Source: Clostridia bacterium (GTDB lineage: Bacteria; Bacillota; Clostridia; Oscillospirales; Acutalibacteraceae). Taken from it: 64,000 nucleotides of DNA. The stretch covers positions 124,006-188,005 of the forward strand of contig JAFXGM010000013.1 of the NCBI GenBank assembly GCA_017513195.1, given 5' to 3'. Made by a program: the position numbers and the translations under genes. Under the pieces are notes generated by a model. The model was not told the origin of the DNA. It saw only the letters and a list, made by a program, of their open reading frames with translations, and made no database searches. Below, in pieces: positions 13,516 to 24,171 of this stretch (positions within the stretch are counted from its first letter, which is position 1; each line of letters begins with the position of its first letter).

Positions 13516-14064
13516 TTAAATAATACTGTTCCACATTTTTTCGTCCGGATGAGGAATTACAGCTGAATCAAGGAACATACCCTGTTCTCCGGCACCCTGC
13601 TTTGCGCGTTCAATCGCTGCATCCACTGCCGCAATCTCACCTGTAAGCAGTAGGTAAGATTTACCGCACATACCGCGTGAAAGGCGAAGCTCTACAAGCT
13701 CTACAAGCGATGTCTTTGCAGCTATATCAGCCGCAACAATGGCAGCCGATGACGAGAAGGTTTCAAGCACGCCCAGCGCATTAGGGCTTTCAATTTCGGT
13801 TGTACCGTAAAGCGCTGTAAAGATACTGTCATGCGGATTGCCAAGTACAAACTTGTCAATAAGCATATCCGGTATTCTGGTTGCCGTCGCATCGACAGCC
13901 GCGCGCACTGCACTGAGCTCACCAGAGATTAGCACCATATATTTACCCGGACACACTGTAGTAGCCTCTATGATTTCAACCTCGGCGGTCTTAACCATTA
14001 TATCTACTGCACGCATACCCGATGATACTGTTTTGTATTCTACCATTGCGAGTGCTTTTTTCAT
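13516..14064 (-). CDS. pduT: Tandem-domain BMC shell protein, PduT-like
   Basis: 182 residues containing two BMC domains in tandem (about 1-88 and 89-182), forming pseudohexameric trimers. The second in-frame ATG is the better start by spacing from AGGTG. Counting from it, the Cys in the VCPGKYM motif is residue 38, the position that in Salmonella PduT binds a [4Fe-4S] cluster at the trimer pore. The C-terminal VIPHPDEKMW also matches PduT. It directly follows pduS, so a route for electrons across the shell is a reasonable inference. Confidence 0.92.
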   Translation of the reverse strand: MKKALAMVEYKTVSSGMRAVDIMVKTAEVEIIEATTVCPGKYMVLISGELSAVRAAVDATATRIPDMLIDKFVLGNPHDSIFTALYGTTEIESPNALGVLETFSSSAAIVAADIAAKTSLVELVELRLSRGMCGKSYLLLTGEIAAVDAAIERAKQGAGEQGMFLDSAVIPHPDEKMWNSII

Positions 14065-14073
14065 CATTTACAC

Positions 14074-15760: not shown

Positions 15761-16039
15761 TTACTTCAATGAGGGAAGAATTTTTTCTACATCTGCGTGT
15801 GGTCTTGGGATTACGTGTGTTGCGATAACTTCGCCCAAAGAACCAGCCGATGAAGAACCTGCTTCTACAGCAGCTTTTACAGCGCCAACGTCGCCACGTA
15901 CCATAACAGATACAAGACCAGAACCTATTTTTTCTGTACCGATAAGCTCTACGTTTGCAGCTTTCACCATTGCATCAGCAGCTTCAATTGCAGCTACAAG
16001 ACCACGGGTTTCTACCATGCCTAATGCTTCAAGTGCCAT
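15761..16039 (-). CDS. BMC-H hexameric shell protein (PduA/EutM-like), copy 1
   Basis: 92 residues forming a single canonical BMC domain ([32 protein letters not shown] ... [17 protein letters not shown] ... [19 protein letters not shown]). It builds the flat hexagonal facets of the shell; the GSG pore loop region lies in KIGSGLV. It differs from the core of the next upstream gene by one residue (Ala versus Asn after PRPH), and their DNA is nearly identical, so the two are recent duplicates or kept alike by gene conversion. A strong AGGAGG ribosome site precedes the ATG. Confidence 0.96.
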
Positions 16040-16094: not shown

Positions 16095-16373
16095 TTATTT
16101 AAGTGATGGAAGAATTTTCTCCACATCGTTGTGAGGTCTTGGAATTACGTGTGTTGCAATAACCTCACCTAAAGAACCGGCTGAAGAAGAACCTGCTTCT
16201 ACAGCAGCTTTTACAGCGCCTACGTCGCCACGTACCATAACAGATACAAGACCTGAGCCTATTTTTTCTGTACCGATAAGCTCTACGTTTGCAGCTTTCA
16301 CCATTGCGTCGGCAGCTTCGATTGCAGCTACAAGACCGCGGGTTTCTACCATGCCTAATGCTTCAAGTGCCAT
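16095..16373 (-). CDS. Probable internally initiated short form of the tailed BMC-H gene
   Basis: The same reading frame from Met-45 gives a 92-residue canonical BMC-H protein. The AGGAGGT at 16381-16387, 7 nt before this ATG, matches the layout of the site before copy 1, whose sequence around the start is very similar. This is a prediction from the ribosome site alone; protein evidence would be needed to confirm two products. Confidence 0.6.
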
Positions 16374-16505
16374 TTTCTTTACCTCCTTTACCATAGGTTC
16401 TATTTCCACCTTTGCTTCTACAGCCTTTTTAGGTGCAGCAGCCTTGGTAGTTGTTGTTTTTTTAGCGGCAGTCGTTTTACTGCCTGTAGTTTTAGAAGTA
16501 GCCAT
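16095..16505 (-). CDS. BMC-H shell protein with a 44-residue Lys/Thr/Ala-rich N-terminal extension
   Basis: 136 residues. Residues 1-44 form a low-complexity tail with 11 Lys and 9 Thr. Residues 45-136 are a BMC-H domain nearly identical to copy 1. The start ATG overlaps the stop of the upstream gene (TAATG), so translational coupling is likely. Near the end of the tail, the codons for Lys-Glu-Val-Lys contain AGGAGGT placed 7 nt before the Met-45 codon, which is a good internal ribosome site. The gene may therefore make both a tailed and a plain shell subunit. The tail is basic, would extend from the hexamer, and has no recognised domain; its role is unknown. Confidence 0.9.
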
Positions 16506-16804
16506 TATTTAGTTCCTTCTTTCTTTTCCATTCGTGATGCGCTAAGCTTAAGCAGTCGCTCGACCTCTGCGTGAGGGCTTGCAATCACTGCGTGAGAAAC
16601 AGGTCGCTTTATGGCATTGGCCATAGCGTTATCTACTGCGGCGGTTACTGCCGAAACCTGACCCTCTACCACAACCGTTACAAGTCGTCCACCAAGCTTG
16701 CGTTCCCAGGTTACAAACTCTACGTCTGCCGATTTGCACATTATGTCAAGACAATCAATAGCAGCCGTTACGCCCGAAACCTCTATAAGTCCGATAGACT
16801 TCAT
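16505..16804 (-). CDS. BMC-H-type shell protein, divergent
   Basis: 99 residues with one BMC domain ([30 protein letters not shown] ... [18 protein letters not shown] ... [15 protein letters not shown]) and a charged tail ([10 protein letters not shown]). It is clearly diverged from the three near-identical BMC-H proteins of this locus and has two Cys in the first helix region. The diverged pore loop (ERKLGGRLV) suggests a different pore. Its stop shares one base with the start of the tailed BMC-H gene, so the pair is probably translationally coupled. Confidence 0.92.
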
Positions 16805-16820: not shown

Positions 16821-17093
16821 TTAGAATTTAGGAAGTATCTTTTCTACATCAGCATGTGGTCTTGGGATTACGTGTACTGCTACAAGCTCGCCAAGGCGTG
16901 AAGCGTTTGCTGAACCTGCTTCAACAGCAGCTTTTACAGCGCCAACATCGCCGCGTACCATTACAGATACAAGACCTGAACCGATTTTTTCGGTACCGAT
17001 GAGTGTTACTTCTGCAGCCTTAACCATTGCATCAGCAGCTTCAATTGCAGCTGTAAGGCCACGGGTTTCTACCATACCAAGTGCTTCTTTCAT
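16821..17093 (-). CDS. BMC-H hexameric shell protein (PduA/EutM-like), copy 3
   Basis: 90 residues, a canonical BMC-H protein closely related to copies 1 and 2 (shared [52 protein letters not shown]) but with more substitutions, such as TAAIEAA, EVTL and [12 protein letters not shown]. It appears to be the older paralogue. It presumably co-assembles into the shell facets. GGAGGATATATATT precedes the start. Confidence 0.95.
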
Positions 17094-17111: not shown

Positions 17112-17426
17112 TTAGTTTTTATCAAAAGCGTTAAGCTTTAGCATTGGTTCTGTGGATGCTTCTGTTCTTGTAATAATATGACTAGCAACCACGCCTGTAA
17201 CGTTTTCGGCAGCCTGTTTTGCAGCAGCCATAGCGGCTTCTACTGCATCAACCGTACCACGAAATTTTATTGCCACAATTAGAGGAACCTCTAATGCATC
17301 AGCGTTACCGGGTTTGTTTTTGTCAAAATTTTCTACAGTAACGTCTGCCGCCTTGCAACCTGCGTCGCAGGCCACGAAAGCGCTTACCAGACCAAACACC
17401 TCTAAAATACCTGTAGCATTACCCAT
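17112..17426 (-). CDS. BMC-H-type shell protein with an internal insertion
   Basis: 104 residues with a BMC domain (MGNATGILEVFGLVSAFVACDAGCKAADVTVE ... VAIKFRGTVDAVEAAMAAAKQAAENV ... SHIITRTEASTEPML). An insertion of about ten residues with Lys, Asn and Pro (NFDKNKPGNADALE) lies between the first strand-helix unit and the pore region. The domain is diverged from the PduA-like copies. It is the first shell gene of the operon, directly after the alcohol dehydrogenase gene. Its exact role in the shell is not known to me. Confidence 0.9.
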   Translation of the reverse strand: MGNATGILEVFGLVSAFVACDAGCKAADVTVENFDKNKPGNADALEVPLIVAIKFRGTVDAVEAAMAAAKQAAENVTGVVASHIITRTEASTEPMLKLNAFDKN

Positions 17427-18634: not shown

Positions 18635-19110
18635 TATAGATACTGTCCTTTCTCAAAAATTTCTTTTCCATAAGCGGCAAGCGCCGTGTCTTGCGCTTCC
18701 GTACCGCCGCTAACACCAATACCGCCTACTATTTGGCCTTCACGGTTTTTAAGTGGTTCACCACCGCCAAAAATCACAATTTTACCACCGTTGGTAAACT
18801 GTATTCCGTAAAGTGAGCCGCCCGGTTGGGCCAAGGGTTTTAGTGTAGCCGTCGACATTTTAAGTGATACAACCGTAAATGCCTTTTGCACCGCTATATC
18901 ATAGCTTGCAATATATGCGTCGTCCATACTCTCCACCAGAACCGGACAAGCGGCTCTGTTAGATATTGCAACGACCGCCTTAACACCCATTTTTTCAGCC
19001 TTTTCGCGCACCTTTTGTGCTACGCTTTGCGCTAAATCAAGTGTTATATCCTTGGGGCTTATTTTACTTACCACCGTCTCGACAATGGATTGTATGGCCT
19101 GTTCGTTCAT
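18634..19110 (-). CDS. GlcG/HbpS-like protein (PduO C-terminal family)
   Basis: 158 residues. The core (LDLAQSVAQKVREKAEKMGVKAVVAISNRAACPVLVESMDDAYIASYDIAVQKAFTVVSLKMST ... GGSLYGI ... GGGEPLKNREGQIVGGIGVSGGT) matches the heme-binding/GlcG family (PF03928), found fused to PduO in some propanediol loci. Here it stands alone. The N-terminal 17 residues (QAIQSIVETVVSKIS) look like an encapsulation helix, so it is probably a lumen protein. Its ligand and function are unproven; heme, flavin or a cobalamin-related role are all guesses. It is coupled to both neighbours by one-base stop/start overlaps. Confidence 0.85.
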   Translation of the reverse strand: MNEQAIQSIVETVVSKISPKDITLDLAQSVAQKVREKAEKMGVKAVVAISNRAACPVLVESMDDAYIASYDIAVQKAFTVVSLKMSTATLKPLAQPGGSLYGIQFTNGGKIVIFGGGEPLKNREGQIVGGIGVSGGTEAQDTALAAYGKEIFEKGQYL

Positions 19111-19910
19111 CAGTTTTTACCAAGCTGAGCGAGTACGCGCTTTGTAATTTCTGCTACCATATCAGACTCGCCCTTGCTACCGCATGTGCAGTTGCCGCCA
19201 CAGCCATGACAGCTAGGCTGACCAGCCTTTGCATTTGGGCAAAGGTCTGCAGGATGTTTACCCTTAAGACCAAACTGACGACGGATTTCATAAAGACGCT
19301 GTACCTGTGATTCAGAAAGCTCTTTCGCACCGCCAAGCTGCTTAGAGATATAAAGTAGTTTTGCATAGAACTCTACAGATTCCATCTTGTGATATGCAGC
19401 AAGAAGTGAATCAGAGAATGTAAGTGCACCGTGATTTTCAAGAAGCACTGCATCAAATGACTGCAAATACTTTGAAACTGCATCAGGGATTTCTTCGGTA
19501 GAAGGTGTGCCGTATTCAGCAATCGGTACACAACCGAGTGCGATAACTGCCTCAGGCATAATAGGCTGTGTTAGCGGAATGCCTGCAATAGCAAAGCCTG
19601 TTGCATACATTGGGTGAGCGTGAACTACCGAATTAACGTCAGGACGCTCTTTATACACACGCATGTGCATCTTGATTTCTGAAGATGGCTTAAAGCCCTT
19701 GTTTGCTTGGATAACTTTACCGTCGCGGTCAACCTTACAAATGAATTCAGGGGTCATAAAGCCCTTACTAACACCTGTTGGTGTGCAAAGGAATTCGTTA
19801 TCGTTAAGCTTTACTGAAATGTTACCGTCGTTTGCAGCAACCATTCCCTTGTCATAAATGCGCTTACCGATGTCGCATATTTGTTTTTTGATTTCATACT
19901 CGTTTACCAT
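19110..19910 (-). CDS. fucA: Class II aldolase, fuculose/rhamnulose-phosphate type, with Cys-rich tail
   Basis: 266 residues, longer than FucA (about 215). The aldolase core has the Zn ligands in HAHPMYATG and ENHGAL and the catalytic Glu region SSEIKMHM. It would split L-fuculose-1-phosphate (or the rhamnose equivalent) into DHAP and L-lactaldehyde. After the core there is a linker with six Cys (CPNAKAGQPSCHGCGGNCTC) and then an amphipathic helix (DMVAEITKRVLAQLGKN) like the encapsulation peptides on other cargo, here at the C-terminus. It is the first gene of the main operon, with its own promoter. The choice between fuculose and rhamnulose cannot be made from sequence by eye. Confidence 0.9.
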   Translation of the reverse strand: MVNEYEIKKQICDIGKRIYDKGMVAANDGNISVKLNDNEFLCTPTGVSKGFMTPEFICKVDRDGKVIQANKGFKPSSEIKMHMRVYKERPDVNSVVHAHPMYATGFAIAGIPLTQPIMPEAVIALGCVPIAEYGTPSTEEIPDAVSKYLQSFDAVLLENHGALTFSDSLLAAYHKMESVEFYAKLLYISKQLGGAKELSESQVQRLYEIRRQFGLKGKHPADLCPNAKAGQPSCHGCGGNCTCGSKGESDMVAEITKRVLAQLGKN

Positions 19911-20015: not shown

Positions 20016-20453
20016 TTATTTATGTGGTTTTATGTGGTTTTTAAGGTGTTCTAACACTTTGTTTATGCCCGTTCCCGTTTTAGAATCGACGTGAAACACC
20101 GTTTCGCACCCCGAAAGTCTTAACCATTCTTCCGCAGTTGTGGGGTCTGCCTTGTCGCACTTTGTTACAATACCTATAACCTCCCTGTTTACCATACAAG
20201 TAATGTTTGGCGGAAAGAGCGAGTACTGTTCGTCAGCCGCTATCAGCAGTGCTACAACGTCAGCCTCGTAAGCATATAGGCAAAGCGCTGCGCCAAGGTC
20301 GTGATTTTCGGCATATTCACCGGGGGTATCTATCAAAAAATCACCGTAATCAATATACTGTGTTTTGTGATAGTGTGTTTTTTCACCCTTGAGCGCTTGA
20401 GTAAGGGTTGTTTTACCCACCCCACTGCGCCCTATAAGAATTAGTTTTTTCAT
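20016..20453 (-). CDS. pduV: PduV/EutP-like small GTPase
   Basis: 145 residues. P-loop LIGRSGVGKTTLTQAL at the N-terminus, DTPGEY as the G3 region, and TKCDKAD as the G4 motif match the EutP/PduV family. These Ras-like proteins are associated with microcompartment positioning in the cell; EutP has also been linked to acetate kinase activity. The start shares a base with the pduU stop. It is the last gene of the dehydratase unit, and no terminator is seen before the aldolase promoter, so some readthrough is possible. Confidence 0.9.
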   Translation of the reverse strand: MKKLILIGRSGVGKTTLTQALKGEKTHYHKTQYIDYGDFLIDTPGEYAENHDLGAALCLYAYEADVVALLIAADEQYSLFPPNITCMVNREVIGIVTKCDKADPTTAEEWLRLSGCETVFHVDSKTGTGINKVLEHLKNHIKPHK

Positions 20454-21611: not shown

Positions 21612-24140
21612 TCAGAAACCTCCCTGCTCGGTACGAGCTATAATGTCATCTTGTAGCGAACGTGATAACGTTGTAAAGAGTGCGCTGTAACCCGCAACGC
21701 GAACCACGAGTGACTTATATTTTTCGGGGTTTTTCTGTGCATCGCGAAGCGTTTCACGGCTTACAACGTTAAACTGCATGTGCATACCCTTTTGATCAAA
21801 GAAGCCTCGTACCAAAGCCACAAAGCTTTCAAGTCCGCTTTGTCCTGCAAGTGCGCTCGGATGGAACTTCATATTAAATAGCGTTCCGTTTGACGCTATA
21901 AAGTGGTCGAGCTTTGCCACCGAGTTTGCCGACGCGGTAGGACCTTTTGTATCTCTGCCTGCTGCAGGGCCAACACCGTCAGCTATTGGTGTGAAGGCAA
22001 GTCTTCCGTCTGGGGTAGCACCCGTTTGTGCACCAAGAGGCACGTTAGCTGATACAGGATATAAGCCTGCTTGATACATACCGCCGCGTGGGTTTTTGTA
22101 TTGTTCAAGCGGTTTTGTATAGGTGTAAGCCACGTCACGTGCAAATGCATCTACATCGGTAAGGTCATTGCCGTATTTCGGTAGTTCTTGTATAGTATCA
22201 AGCAACTCGCCCCAACGAGCTTTATCGGCATCGGATGCGGGGTTTTTAGATACTGCCAAGTAAATAGATTTTATATCTTCCGCGGTAAGCGTTTTACCGT
22301 CAGCCACTAATTTTTCGGCAACCGTTTTGGTAAGCTTTTCAGCAGTTGCTGTATCCATATCCTTACCAAAGTTATTATCAAGCGCTGCTTTAAGCTCACA
22401 AAGCTTTATAAGCTTTTTATCGTATACAAGAGTTTTTACAGCCAAGAGTGCATCGGTCATATTTGCTATACCAAAGCCTTGAGGGCCGGTAAAGTTATAA
22501 ACCGCACCACCCTCTTGCAAGCTCTTGCCTCTGCCGATACAATCCTCTATCATTGAGGATTGGAAAGGAAGCGGGCAGCGACGAGCATGTGCTAAATCTA
22601 TAGCGTTATCTGCGTTTACAAGTAATTTTATAAAATAGTTCATCTGCGCTTTGTAAGCGTCATAGAACTTATCAAACGTGGTAAATTCGTGAAGCTCGCC
22701 TGTTCGCAAACCTACCTGCACGCCGCGGTCAACACCGTTTGAAAAAACAAGCTCAAGCGGGCGACACATATTAAAGAACGCTGCGTCGTGCCAACCGTCT
22801 GTTTTTGCAGGAGCCTGAGGTTCAACACAACCGATTATGTTGTAGTTACGAGCGTCCTCGAGTGTCACGCCACGGCTCATAAGTGACGGAATAATAACCT
22901 CGTCATTGTAATAAGCCGGAAGGCCTACACCCGTTCTGGTTACCTCTGCCGCGCGAAGCAAAAATTCATGCGGGCTACCGTTCCAAACACGAACCGAAAA
23001 CGAAGGCATTGGAAGCATTACGTGAAGCGTGGCGTTAATGCACATAAACGAAACATCGTTTGTAGCGTCATTGCCATATTTGTCCTGACCGCCTGCGATG
23101 AGGTTTTGGAACAAGCTATAGCCTGCAAAGCCCTCTGCCGAAGCGGCGTCGCGAACTTTGTTAAGGTCGTTAAGCTTAACCCAAATGCAATCAACAAGCT
23201 CTTGTGCAAACTCGCGTGTTATTTTGCCTGTATTTAAATCCTTTTCAAAATAAGGATTCATATATTGGTCAAATCTACCGGGAGAAATTGAATGTCCGCT
23301 TGATTCAACCTGCAAAAGCATCTGCACAAACCAGAAGGACTGGCAAGCCTCATAAAAGCTTTCGGCGCCATATCTCGGTACGCGAGTACAGTTTTCTGCG
23401 ATTTTCAAAAGCTCTTCACGGCGTTTTGTATCAAACTCGGCCGTCGCCATTTCTTTTGCAAGTGTAGCATAGCGGTCAGCATAGTTTATAACTGCTTCAC
23501 AGCTAATTATTACCGCTTGTAAAAACGTGCTGCGAGATGCGTAATCAGCATCTGCCACATCAAGAGCGTTTAAAGCATCGTTCGCTTCGGCGATAATTCC
23601 CTTGTAACCCTTTTCTAACACCTTGCCGTAATCTACTGTAAAATGACCGATGCCATTATAGAAATAGTTACCTACAGTAAATATATTGTGCTCTATAGCG
23701 CAAAGCGCTTCAGGCGACATATAAGCAGTCGCAAGTTCGCTTGTGGTCTTACCCTTCCAGTAAGGGTAAACCTCACGAAGCTTTGCTTTGGTTTCTTCCG
23801 ATATATAAAACGGGTCGGCGCTACGTGTAGCAACGGTATCAAATTCGGCCTCCAACCACTCGTAAGAATATTCAGGGAATACCTGACAACCGCGCGGAGC
23901 CTTTGAGTTGCTACCTACAATCAATTCTTCAGGACGAATTGTTATTGGCAAATTCTCAAGTATGTGCGCAAAGGCCTTTGCTCTGCGCAATACTATTGGC
24001 TGCCCCTCGGTTGATTTATAACTTTCGGTTATCAGCACTGCACGGTCAGCCTCTATCTCGGGCATCTTTGCATAAAGATGATCAATAAGGCGCCCTATAC
24101 GCGGTGATTTTTCTATATTTTTTGTGTATGTGTATGGCAT
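21612..24140 (-). CDS. B12-independent 1,2-propanediol/glycerol dehydratase (glycyl radical enzyme)
   Basis: 842 residues from ATG (MPYTYTKN), preceded by GTGAGGT at suitable spacing; a GTG five codons upstream overlaps that ribosome site. The glycyl radical motif RVAGYSALF lies near the C-terminus. The thiyl Cys is in NIIGCVEPQAPAKTDGWHDAAFF, with the Glu after it, as in diol and glycerol dehydratases. It would convert 1,2-propanediol to propionaldehyde. Choline lyase and isethionate lyase were considered, but an aldolase, PduL, PduU and PduV in the same locus support propanediol from deoxysugars. It has no obvious encapsulation helix, so how it is packaged is unclear. Confidence 0.93.
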   Translation of the reverse strand: MPYTYTKNIEKSPRIGRLIDHLYAKMPEIEADRAVLITESYKSTEGQPIVLRRAKAFAHILENLPITIRPEELIVGSNSKAPRGCQVFPEYSYEWLEAEFDTVATRSADPFYISEETKAKLREVYPYWKGKTTSELATAYMSPEALCAIEHNIFTVGNYFYNGIGHFTVDYGKVLEKGYKGIIAEANDALNALDVADADYASRSTFLQAVIISCEAVINYADRYATLAKEMATAEFDTKRREELLKIAENCTRVPRYGAESFYEACQSFWFVQMLLQVESSGHSISPGRFDQYMNPYFEKDLNTGKITREFAQELVDCIWVKLNDLNKVRDAASAEGFAGYSLFQNLIAGGQDKYGNDATNDVSFMCINATLHVMLPMPSFSVRVWNGSPHEFLLRAAEVTRTGVGLPAYYNDEVIIPSLMSRGVTLEDARNYNIIGCVEPQAPAKTDGWHDAAFFNMCRPLELVFSNGVDRGVQVGLRTGELHEFTTFDKFYDAYKAQMNYFIKLLVNADNAIDLAHARRCPLPFQSSMIEDCIGRGKSLQEGGAVYNFTGPQGFGIANMTDALLAVKTLVYDKKLIKLCELKAALDNNFGKDMDTATAEKLTKTVAEKLVADGKTLTAEDIKSIYLAVSKNPASDADKARWGELLDTIQELPKYGNDLTDVDAFARDVAYTYTKPLEQYKNPRGGMYQAGLYPVSANVPLGAQTGATPDGRLAFTPIADGVGPAAGRDTKGPTASANSVAKLDHFIASNGTLFNMKFHPSALAGQSGLESFVALVRGFFDQKGMHMQFNVVSRETLRDAQKNPEKYKSLVVRVAGYSALFTTLSRSLQDDIIARTEQGGF

Positions 24141-24171
24141 AAGACAATACCTCACTTTACTGATTGTGTTT

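Follow-up and report, generated by a model that had tools for sequence, protein, structure and literature searches.

In β-carboxysomes, CcmM is produced in a long and a short form from one gene through internal initiation; it organises cargo and is not a shell tile. Among shell proteins, the trimeric BMC-T protein PduB offers a parallel: one gene gives two products, PduB and PduB', that differ by an N-terminal extension of 37 residues (PMC9132943). PduB' is made from an alternative translation start (PMC5109269), and copy numbers per shell of 671 and 834 are given for the pair (PMC7181861).

Extensions of BMC-H proteins can be as long as 200 residues and are mostly C-terminal, according to a survey of the family (PMC8217296). 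Deletion of PduK, a minor BMC-H protein with a C-terminal extension, confines Pdu organelles to the cell poles; the authors suggested that its extension, outward on the concave side, contacts other parts of the cell (PMC9132943). Another minor BMC-H, EutK, has a positively charged C-terminal tail, possibly nucleotide-binding, and affects the distribution of BMCs (PMC12487888). The termini of PduA lie on the concave face, which points outward in recombinant shells, the native orientation being disputed (PMC6109187). Finally, Cphy_1182 of Clostridium phytofermentans matches PduA over residues 73-161 only, with about 72 extra residues at the N-terminus; the match is given in a table note of PMC3557285, whose passages on this protein describe neither the tail nor an internal start.

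The window, by which we mean the whole 64,000-nucleotide stretch of DNA analysed, comes from a gut bacterium of the Clostridia. On its minus strand, at 16095..16505, it carries a gene for a 136-residue BMC-H protein. Residues 45-136 form a canonical BMC domain: PF00936 matches at residues 49-124 (E 1.3e-29, 102.4 bits against a curated cut-off of 24.5), and solved PduA chains match residues 45-134. This single PF00936 stretch places the protein in BMC-H, and no PduB-type tandem of BMC domains was found in it. Codons 1-44 (16374..16505) encode a tail rich in Lys, Thr and Ala, with a composition like that of its relatives, a weakly protein-like codon-position pattern and a net charge of +7; Pfam detects no folded domain in it. 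The preliminary description had reported 11 Lys and 9 Thr in a 44-residue tail fused to a canonical BMC-H, and both the recount and the domain match agree.

Two candidate translation starts can be recognised in this frame. The start codon of the tail (16505-16503) overlaps the stop codon of the preceding BMC-H gene (TAATG) and is preceded at 8 nt by an SD-like AAGGA (16514..16518). The second start lies at the junction of tail and core: a Shine-Dalgarno (SD) sequence, AGGAGGT, at 16381..16387, reading AAAGGAGGT, stands 7 nt ahead of the ATG of Met-45 (16371..16373), exactly as the preliminary description had it. Initiation at this codon would translate the core frame (16095..16373) into a plain BMC-H of 92 residues. 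The layout was also said to repeat that of a near-identical neighbour gene, and it does: the internal site is AAAGGAGGTAAAGAAA-ATG, the neighbour starts with CAGGAGGAAACGAAA-ATG, and the two cores share 99% protein identity.

We read this arrangement primarily as dual initiation, one gene giving both a tailed and a plain BMC-H, and consider this likely. Translation of the tailed form would begin at the first ATG, through coupling to the upstream gene's stop codon, and that of the plain form at the internal AGGAGG-ATG. Since both forms share one presumably hexamer-forming core, mixed hexamers are probable, and the two start rates would limit how many tails a shell carries.

The neighbour in question, a plain BMC-H copy with its own SD (AGGAGG, 16053-16048), lies at 15761..16039 on the same strand. 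It is not a fresh duplicate, because behind the 99% protein identity only 254 of 279 nucleotides agree with the tailed core. Three more BMC-H genes lie at higher coordinates, again on the minus strand: a PduK-like one at 16505..16804, so named from its gene position and from the Cphy_1181 entry in PMC3557285; a plain paralog (PF00936) 82% identical to the tailed core at 16821..17093; and a further PF00936 protein of 104 residues at 17112..17426. Concerted evolution of the tailed core and the plain copy is partial at best, as only 8 of 19 downstream copies are nearest to the tailed core of their own locus.

By its gene content, the surrounding operon is a microcompartment locus of the GRM5 type, that is, a glycyl-radical locus for fucose and rhamnose; the content agrees with published GRM5 gene lists (PMC4207490, PMC6325248). 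We found a glycyl radical enzyme with PFL-like and Gly_radical domain matches (21612..24155, minus strand), a class II aldolase (19110..19910, minus strand; PF00596 above cut-off, substrate not settled by NCBIfam), a DeoR regulator (PF00455/PF08220), a protein with RnfC-type domains in the position of PduS, and a PduT-like protein. Zinc alcohol and aldehyde dehydrogenases, the phosphate propanoyltransferase PduL and a BMC-P accompany them, along with six further PF00936 genes. One of these six is the PduT-like gene, a two-domain BMC-T (13516..14067, minus strand) whose best NCBIfam match, eut_PduT, falls under its cut-off. It is the sole two-domain PF00936 protein detected in the genome, whose eight PF00936 domains all belong to this locus; the PduB model TIGR04501 has no match in the genome at E 0.001. 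Next to a PduU/EutS-like BMC-H, the window also encodes a GTPase-like protein of the PduV/EutP family (20016-20453; PF10662 and TIGR02528 above cut-off). A role in coupling BMCs to filament-associated movement has been suggested for PduV (PMC9132943).

Matches to the tailed gene occur in 14 of 60 genomes searched (its own included) and in 105 of 391 genomes of the class at E 1e-30; loci from named records were the best 80 of 442 related ones, retrieved with a query that included the tail. The BMC-H genes extracted for their similarity to the query amount to 273 distinct ones, which a fixed rule sorted into 77 tailed, 188 short and 8 odd; two of the odd genes (L164 and L165) were moved by hand to the tailed class. 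The resulting 79 distinct tailed genes span at least 13 families, counted among the numbered genomes. They are not independent, 71 of them having distinct 21-nt junctions. Owing to a truncated core match, L017 stays outside the set, as do L020 and its copies, L033 and L091. The tails measure 24-114 residues (median 42) and, leaving aside the last six residues, contain 19% Lys, 18% Ala, 13.5% Thr and 11% Glu; 8 of the 79 are not net positive.

In 78 of the 79 tailed genes, a Met marks the tail/core junction or lies no more than three codons away. All 78 have an SD score of at least 5 before this Met, and 61 the full AAGGAGG. Where GGAGG is present, its distance to the ATG is 8 nt in all but two of 73 genes (71), the exceptions being L049 (5 nt) and L146 (11 nt); in L043, L054, L070, L083 and L093 the match is shorter (AGGAG or AAGGAG only). 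The preliminary description had suggested searching BMC-H families for Lys/Thr/Ala-rich N-terminal tails with an internal AGGAGG ahead of the core Met; it had named relatives devoid of the internal ribosome site as the observation that would count against it, and every tailed gene with a junction Met retains the SD.

The SD and the Met also move together. In L065 and L092 the Met sits -3 or +6 nt from its usual place, the SD has shifted with it and the 8-nt spacing is kept; in L070, likewise with a displaced Met, AAGGAG lies 9 nt ahead of it. Both elements are present in L020 and both are absent from the truncated L017. L073, alone within the set in lacking the junction Met, also lacks the SD and is followed by two plain copies; this locus resembles a split of a dual-product gene into separate genes. 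Locus L088 (L. phytofermentans) encodes a 163-residue protein with a 71-residue tail and AAGGAGGAAAAAATT-ATG at the junction, which by organism name and size we infer to be the ortholog of Cphy_1182.

Three rival explanations concern the internal site itself. The junctions mostly encode KEEKK, KEVKK or KEEKR, and a peptide KE[EV][KR][KR]M might be conserved for protein reasons, with the SD as a by-product. However, all 65 of the 65 Lys-Glu pairs next to the Met are written AAG-GAG; at other places in these genes 1 of 52 is (Fisher 1e-32, a value that relatedness inflates), and AAA-GAA dominates there (35/52). Moreover, the residue preceding GGAGG, which is Lys in 61 of 73 genes, is replaced in the other 12 by Arg (3), Thr (3), Glu (3), Met, Pro or Gln (1 each), and GGAGG stays unchanged. 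We therefore reject conservation of a protein motif alone as extremely improbable. Alternatively, the tail may have been fused in front of a plain gene, whose old SD persists by inertia. The SD-ATG layout is shared with the plain neighbour, so the internal site probably did originate by such a fusion. Its persistence as a mere relic is nonetheless very unlikely and does not survive the codon tests: the site is found in 78 of 78 genes despite tails of divergent length and sequence, while synonymous sites in the conserved core are mixed (AAG for 175 of 380 Lys, GAG for 162 of 468 Glu). Across 11 genomes of the window genus, the SD-relevant codons are AAG in 11/11 and GAG in 11/11, whereas the next codon varies, and none of the 78 genes keeps the Met but has lost the SD. 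Finally, SD-like stretches within genes have been proposed to slow ribosomes, and here one could make ribosomes pause for co-translational assembly instead of initiating. We hold this highly improbable, given an in-frame ATG at 8 nt and an SD that shifts and vanishes jointly with it.

The AAG-GAG bias, the free variation of the tail around it and the joint loss of Met and SD indicate that selection acts on the ribosome site, and that it does so at the level of the nucleotides. Within-gene shuffling of synonymous codons gives an SD score of at least 5 in 39% of cases on average, compared with the 78 of 78 observed. The same test on the window gene alone is not significant (p 0.093), hence the case for dual initiation rests on conservation. 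The proposal that one mRNA could yield tailed and plain subunits is thus supported, by the conserved SD and Met and by the codon constraint.

Both starts look usable from their sequences. The median anti-SD energy is -12.0 for internal sites, -10.7 for tail starts and -10.3 for untailed genes (n=186), and the internal site is the stronger of the two in 53 of 78 genes. The tail start has the weaker SD (a simple motif score is 0 in 23 of 78 genes), so the tailed form may be the minor one, or even rare. A search for mRNA structure masking the internal SD returned nothing unusual (z 0.55).

How much a cell would depend on the internal start for its plain subunit differs between loci. A plain copy of at least 70% identity follows within 1.5 kb downstream in 17 of 79 cases; none is seen in the other 62, many of the loci being short, and there the internal start may be the sole source of the matching plain subunit. 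Upstream, a plain paralog of at least 70% accompanies 76 of the 79, with the same reservation about short loci. In the window genus, the separate plain copy offers another source of the plain form beside the internal start, and the dual-start arrangement is partly redundant.

Lys-rich tails also occur on the other side of the gene boundary. In loci that lack the N-terminal tail, orthologs of the PduK-like BMC-H often carry a Lys-rich tail at their C-terminus, defined here as at least 20 residues with at least 6 Lys/Arg and 60% K/R/A/T/P/E/S/Q, net positive charge not being required. A first set of loci had such a C-tail in 12 of 31 cases without N-tail and in 2 of 44 with one. A new set, in which 21 of 40 fetched loci were classifiable, gave 0 with both tails, 7 with N only, 11 with C only and 3 with neither (p 0.001), although two of these loci, L188 and L209, come from genomes that had been counted before, and a single family, f35, accounts for 10 of the 11 loci with C only. 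Over all classified loci of at least 4.5 kb (n=98), 2 have both, 49 N only, 21 C only and 26 neither (p 1.7e-6), that is, C-tails in 21 of 47 loci without N-tail against 2 of 51 with it; a further 39 loci of this size have no recognisable PduK-like sister gene.

These p values ignore phylogeny and 11 of the 21 C-tailed loci fall in family f35, so the mutual exclusion is largely a contrast of lineages and best read as a between-lineage difference. Nineteen of the 21 C-tails are net positive; the charge is 0 in L161 and -1 in L085. The extension of the PduK-like protein is longer in loci without N-tail (median 23 against 8.5 residues, p 7e-6) and does not differ in net charge (2 against 3 with N-tail, p 0.80), L020 being counted as untailed in both comparisons. 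In the 13 C-tailed loci examined, the gene set is largely shared and the gene order similar without being identical. Their division by presence or absence of the aldolase is unreliable, as the 55% threshold missed divergent aldolases.

Some of the C-tails contain a motif like that of AT-hooks. RGRP occurs in 5 of 23 (0.02 expected), and so does the longer [KR]RGRP[KR], the AT-hook core (0.001 expected by shuffling); both motifs were chosen after they had been seen. The five hook-bearing tails (L176, L177, L180, L182 and L183, of the RRGRPKK/KRGRPRK type) all come from f35, and three of them match the Pfam AT_hook model (PF02178) below its cut-off (13.9-14.9 bits against 17.4). The related N-tails of L164 and L165 carry an AT-hook-like motif as well. 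The window tail has neither the motif nor a PF02178 match. Enrichment of S/TPKK in the tails is not significant; PKK is enriched in C-tails (8 of 23, 2.2 expected) and N-tails (17 of 77, 8.2 expected), which says little. Among the matches listed from the open-licence literature, titles and abstract openings describe neither an internal start in a BMC-H gene nor an AT-hook on a shell protein.

What the tail does is a separate question from how it is made. In our best reading, a PduB/PduB'-style internal start, transferred by analogy to a hexamer protein, limits the dose of a basic handle. The tail would be a handle, mostly Lys-basic and probably disordered, that projects from the concave face, the cytosolic one in recombinant shells. 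Most likely it would act outward in the manner of PduK or EutK, binding a cellular polyanion and spreading the organelles in the cell, with nucleoid DNA as the best candidate. Like both of these, the window protein is a BMC-H with an extension; unlike them, it has the tail at the N-terminus, contains a probable internal start and keeps the 'basal' motifs KAAN and PRPH (motifs as given in PMC8217296). Lys-rich tails on adjacent hexamer genes, at the N-terminus of one or the C-terminus of the other, are consistent with an outward handle. Of the partners that the preliminary description had named for the tail (nucleic acid, acidic cargo or other shells), the N/C-tail pattern and the AT-hooks of some relatives lean towards nucleic acid, or else towards a role in positioning. 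Taken alone, this outward-handle role has in our estimate a little less than an even chance.

Even if dual initiation is real, the tail could serve instead as a tether that binds the enzyme core to the shell from the inside, in place of the absent PduB, whose 37-residue extension, missing from PduB', does so (PMC9132943). The genome of the window would suit this proposal, as its only two-domain PF00936 protein is PduT-like. PduB also scores above cut-off in 0 of 48 genomes with N-tails against 17 of 48 others (two more just below), the genomes of L164 and L165 being in neither group. That contrast is confounded with locus type, and the 48 comparison genomes were hand-picked and their N-tails checked in part; it does not discriminate between handle and tether, and absence of PduB was rejected as proof of replacement. 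Other observations argue against the tether: similar Lys-rich tails sit on the C-terminus of the PduK-like protein, itself linked to positioning, the AT-hooks of some relatives are unsuited to enzyme binding, and the N-terminus of BMC-H belongs to the concave face, which recombinant shells turn outward (PMC6109187). PduB differs from our protein, furthermore, in being a trimeric BMC-T; the window gene encodes a BMC-H of one domain that bears a Lys-rich tail, and it belongs to a GRM5-type operon in a genome without PduB. We regard the inward tether as rather unlikely.

The outward handle can be carried one step further, tentatively. GRM5 organelles might be spread by a DNA tether of their own making: a tail, basic or with an AT-hook, would grip the nucleoid from the outer shell face. 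In evolution this tail would have moved between two places, the C-terminus of the PduK-like protein and the N-terminus of the basal BMC-H, and in the latter the internal ribosome site would hold down its dose. We consider this extended version possible but doubtful. If true, it would amount to an organelle-partition system with dose control by a ribosome site inside a coding region.

PduB, a BMC-T, is already known to have an alternative start; a conserved counterpart in a basal BMC-H, present in many families, suggests that shells which mix tiles with and without tails recur as a design. It would also offer a one-gene route to setting the density of tags on engineered shells. Lys-rich tails on either of two neighbouring shell genes, some of them with AT-hooks, make the positioning of metabolosomes directly testable in culturable clostridia.

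A simple shift of stop and start codons, moving the tail from one gene to the other, was considered for the relation between C- and N-tails and rejected: frames are mixed across all loci, although one locus, L040, fits. There (L040:58-770), a PduK-like BMC-H with a 45-residue basic C-tail ends in a stop codon, after which a plain BMC-H starts in the same frame; the locus is possibly an intermediate between the two arrangements.
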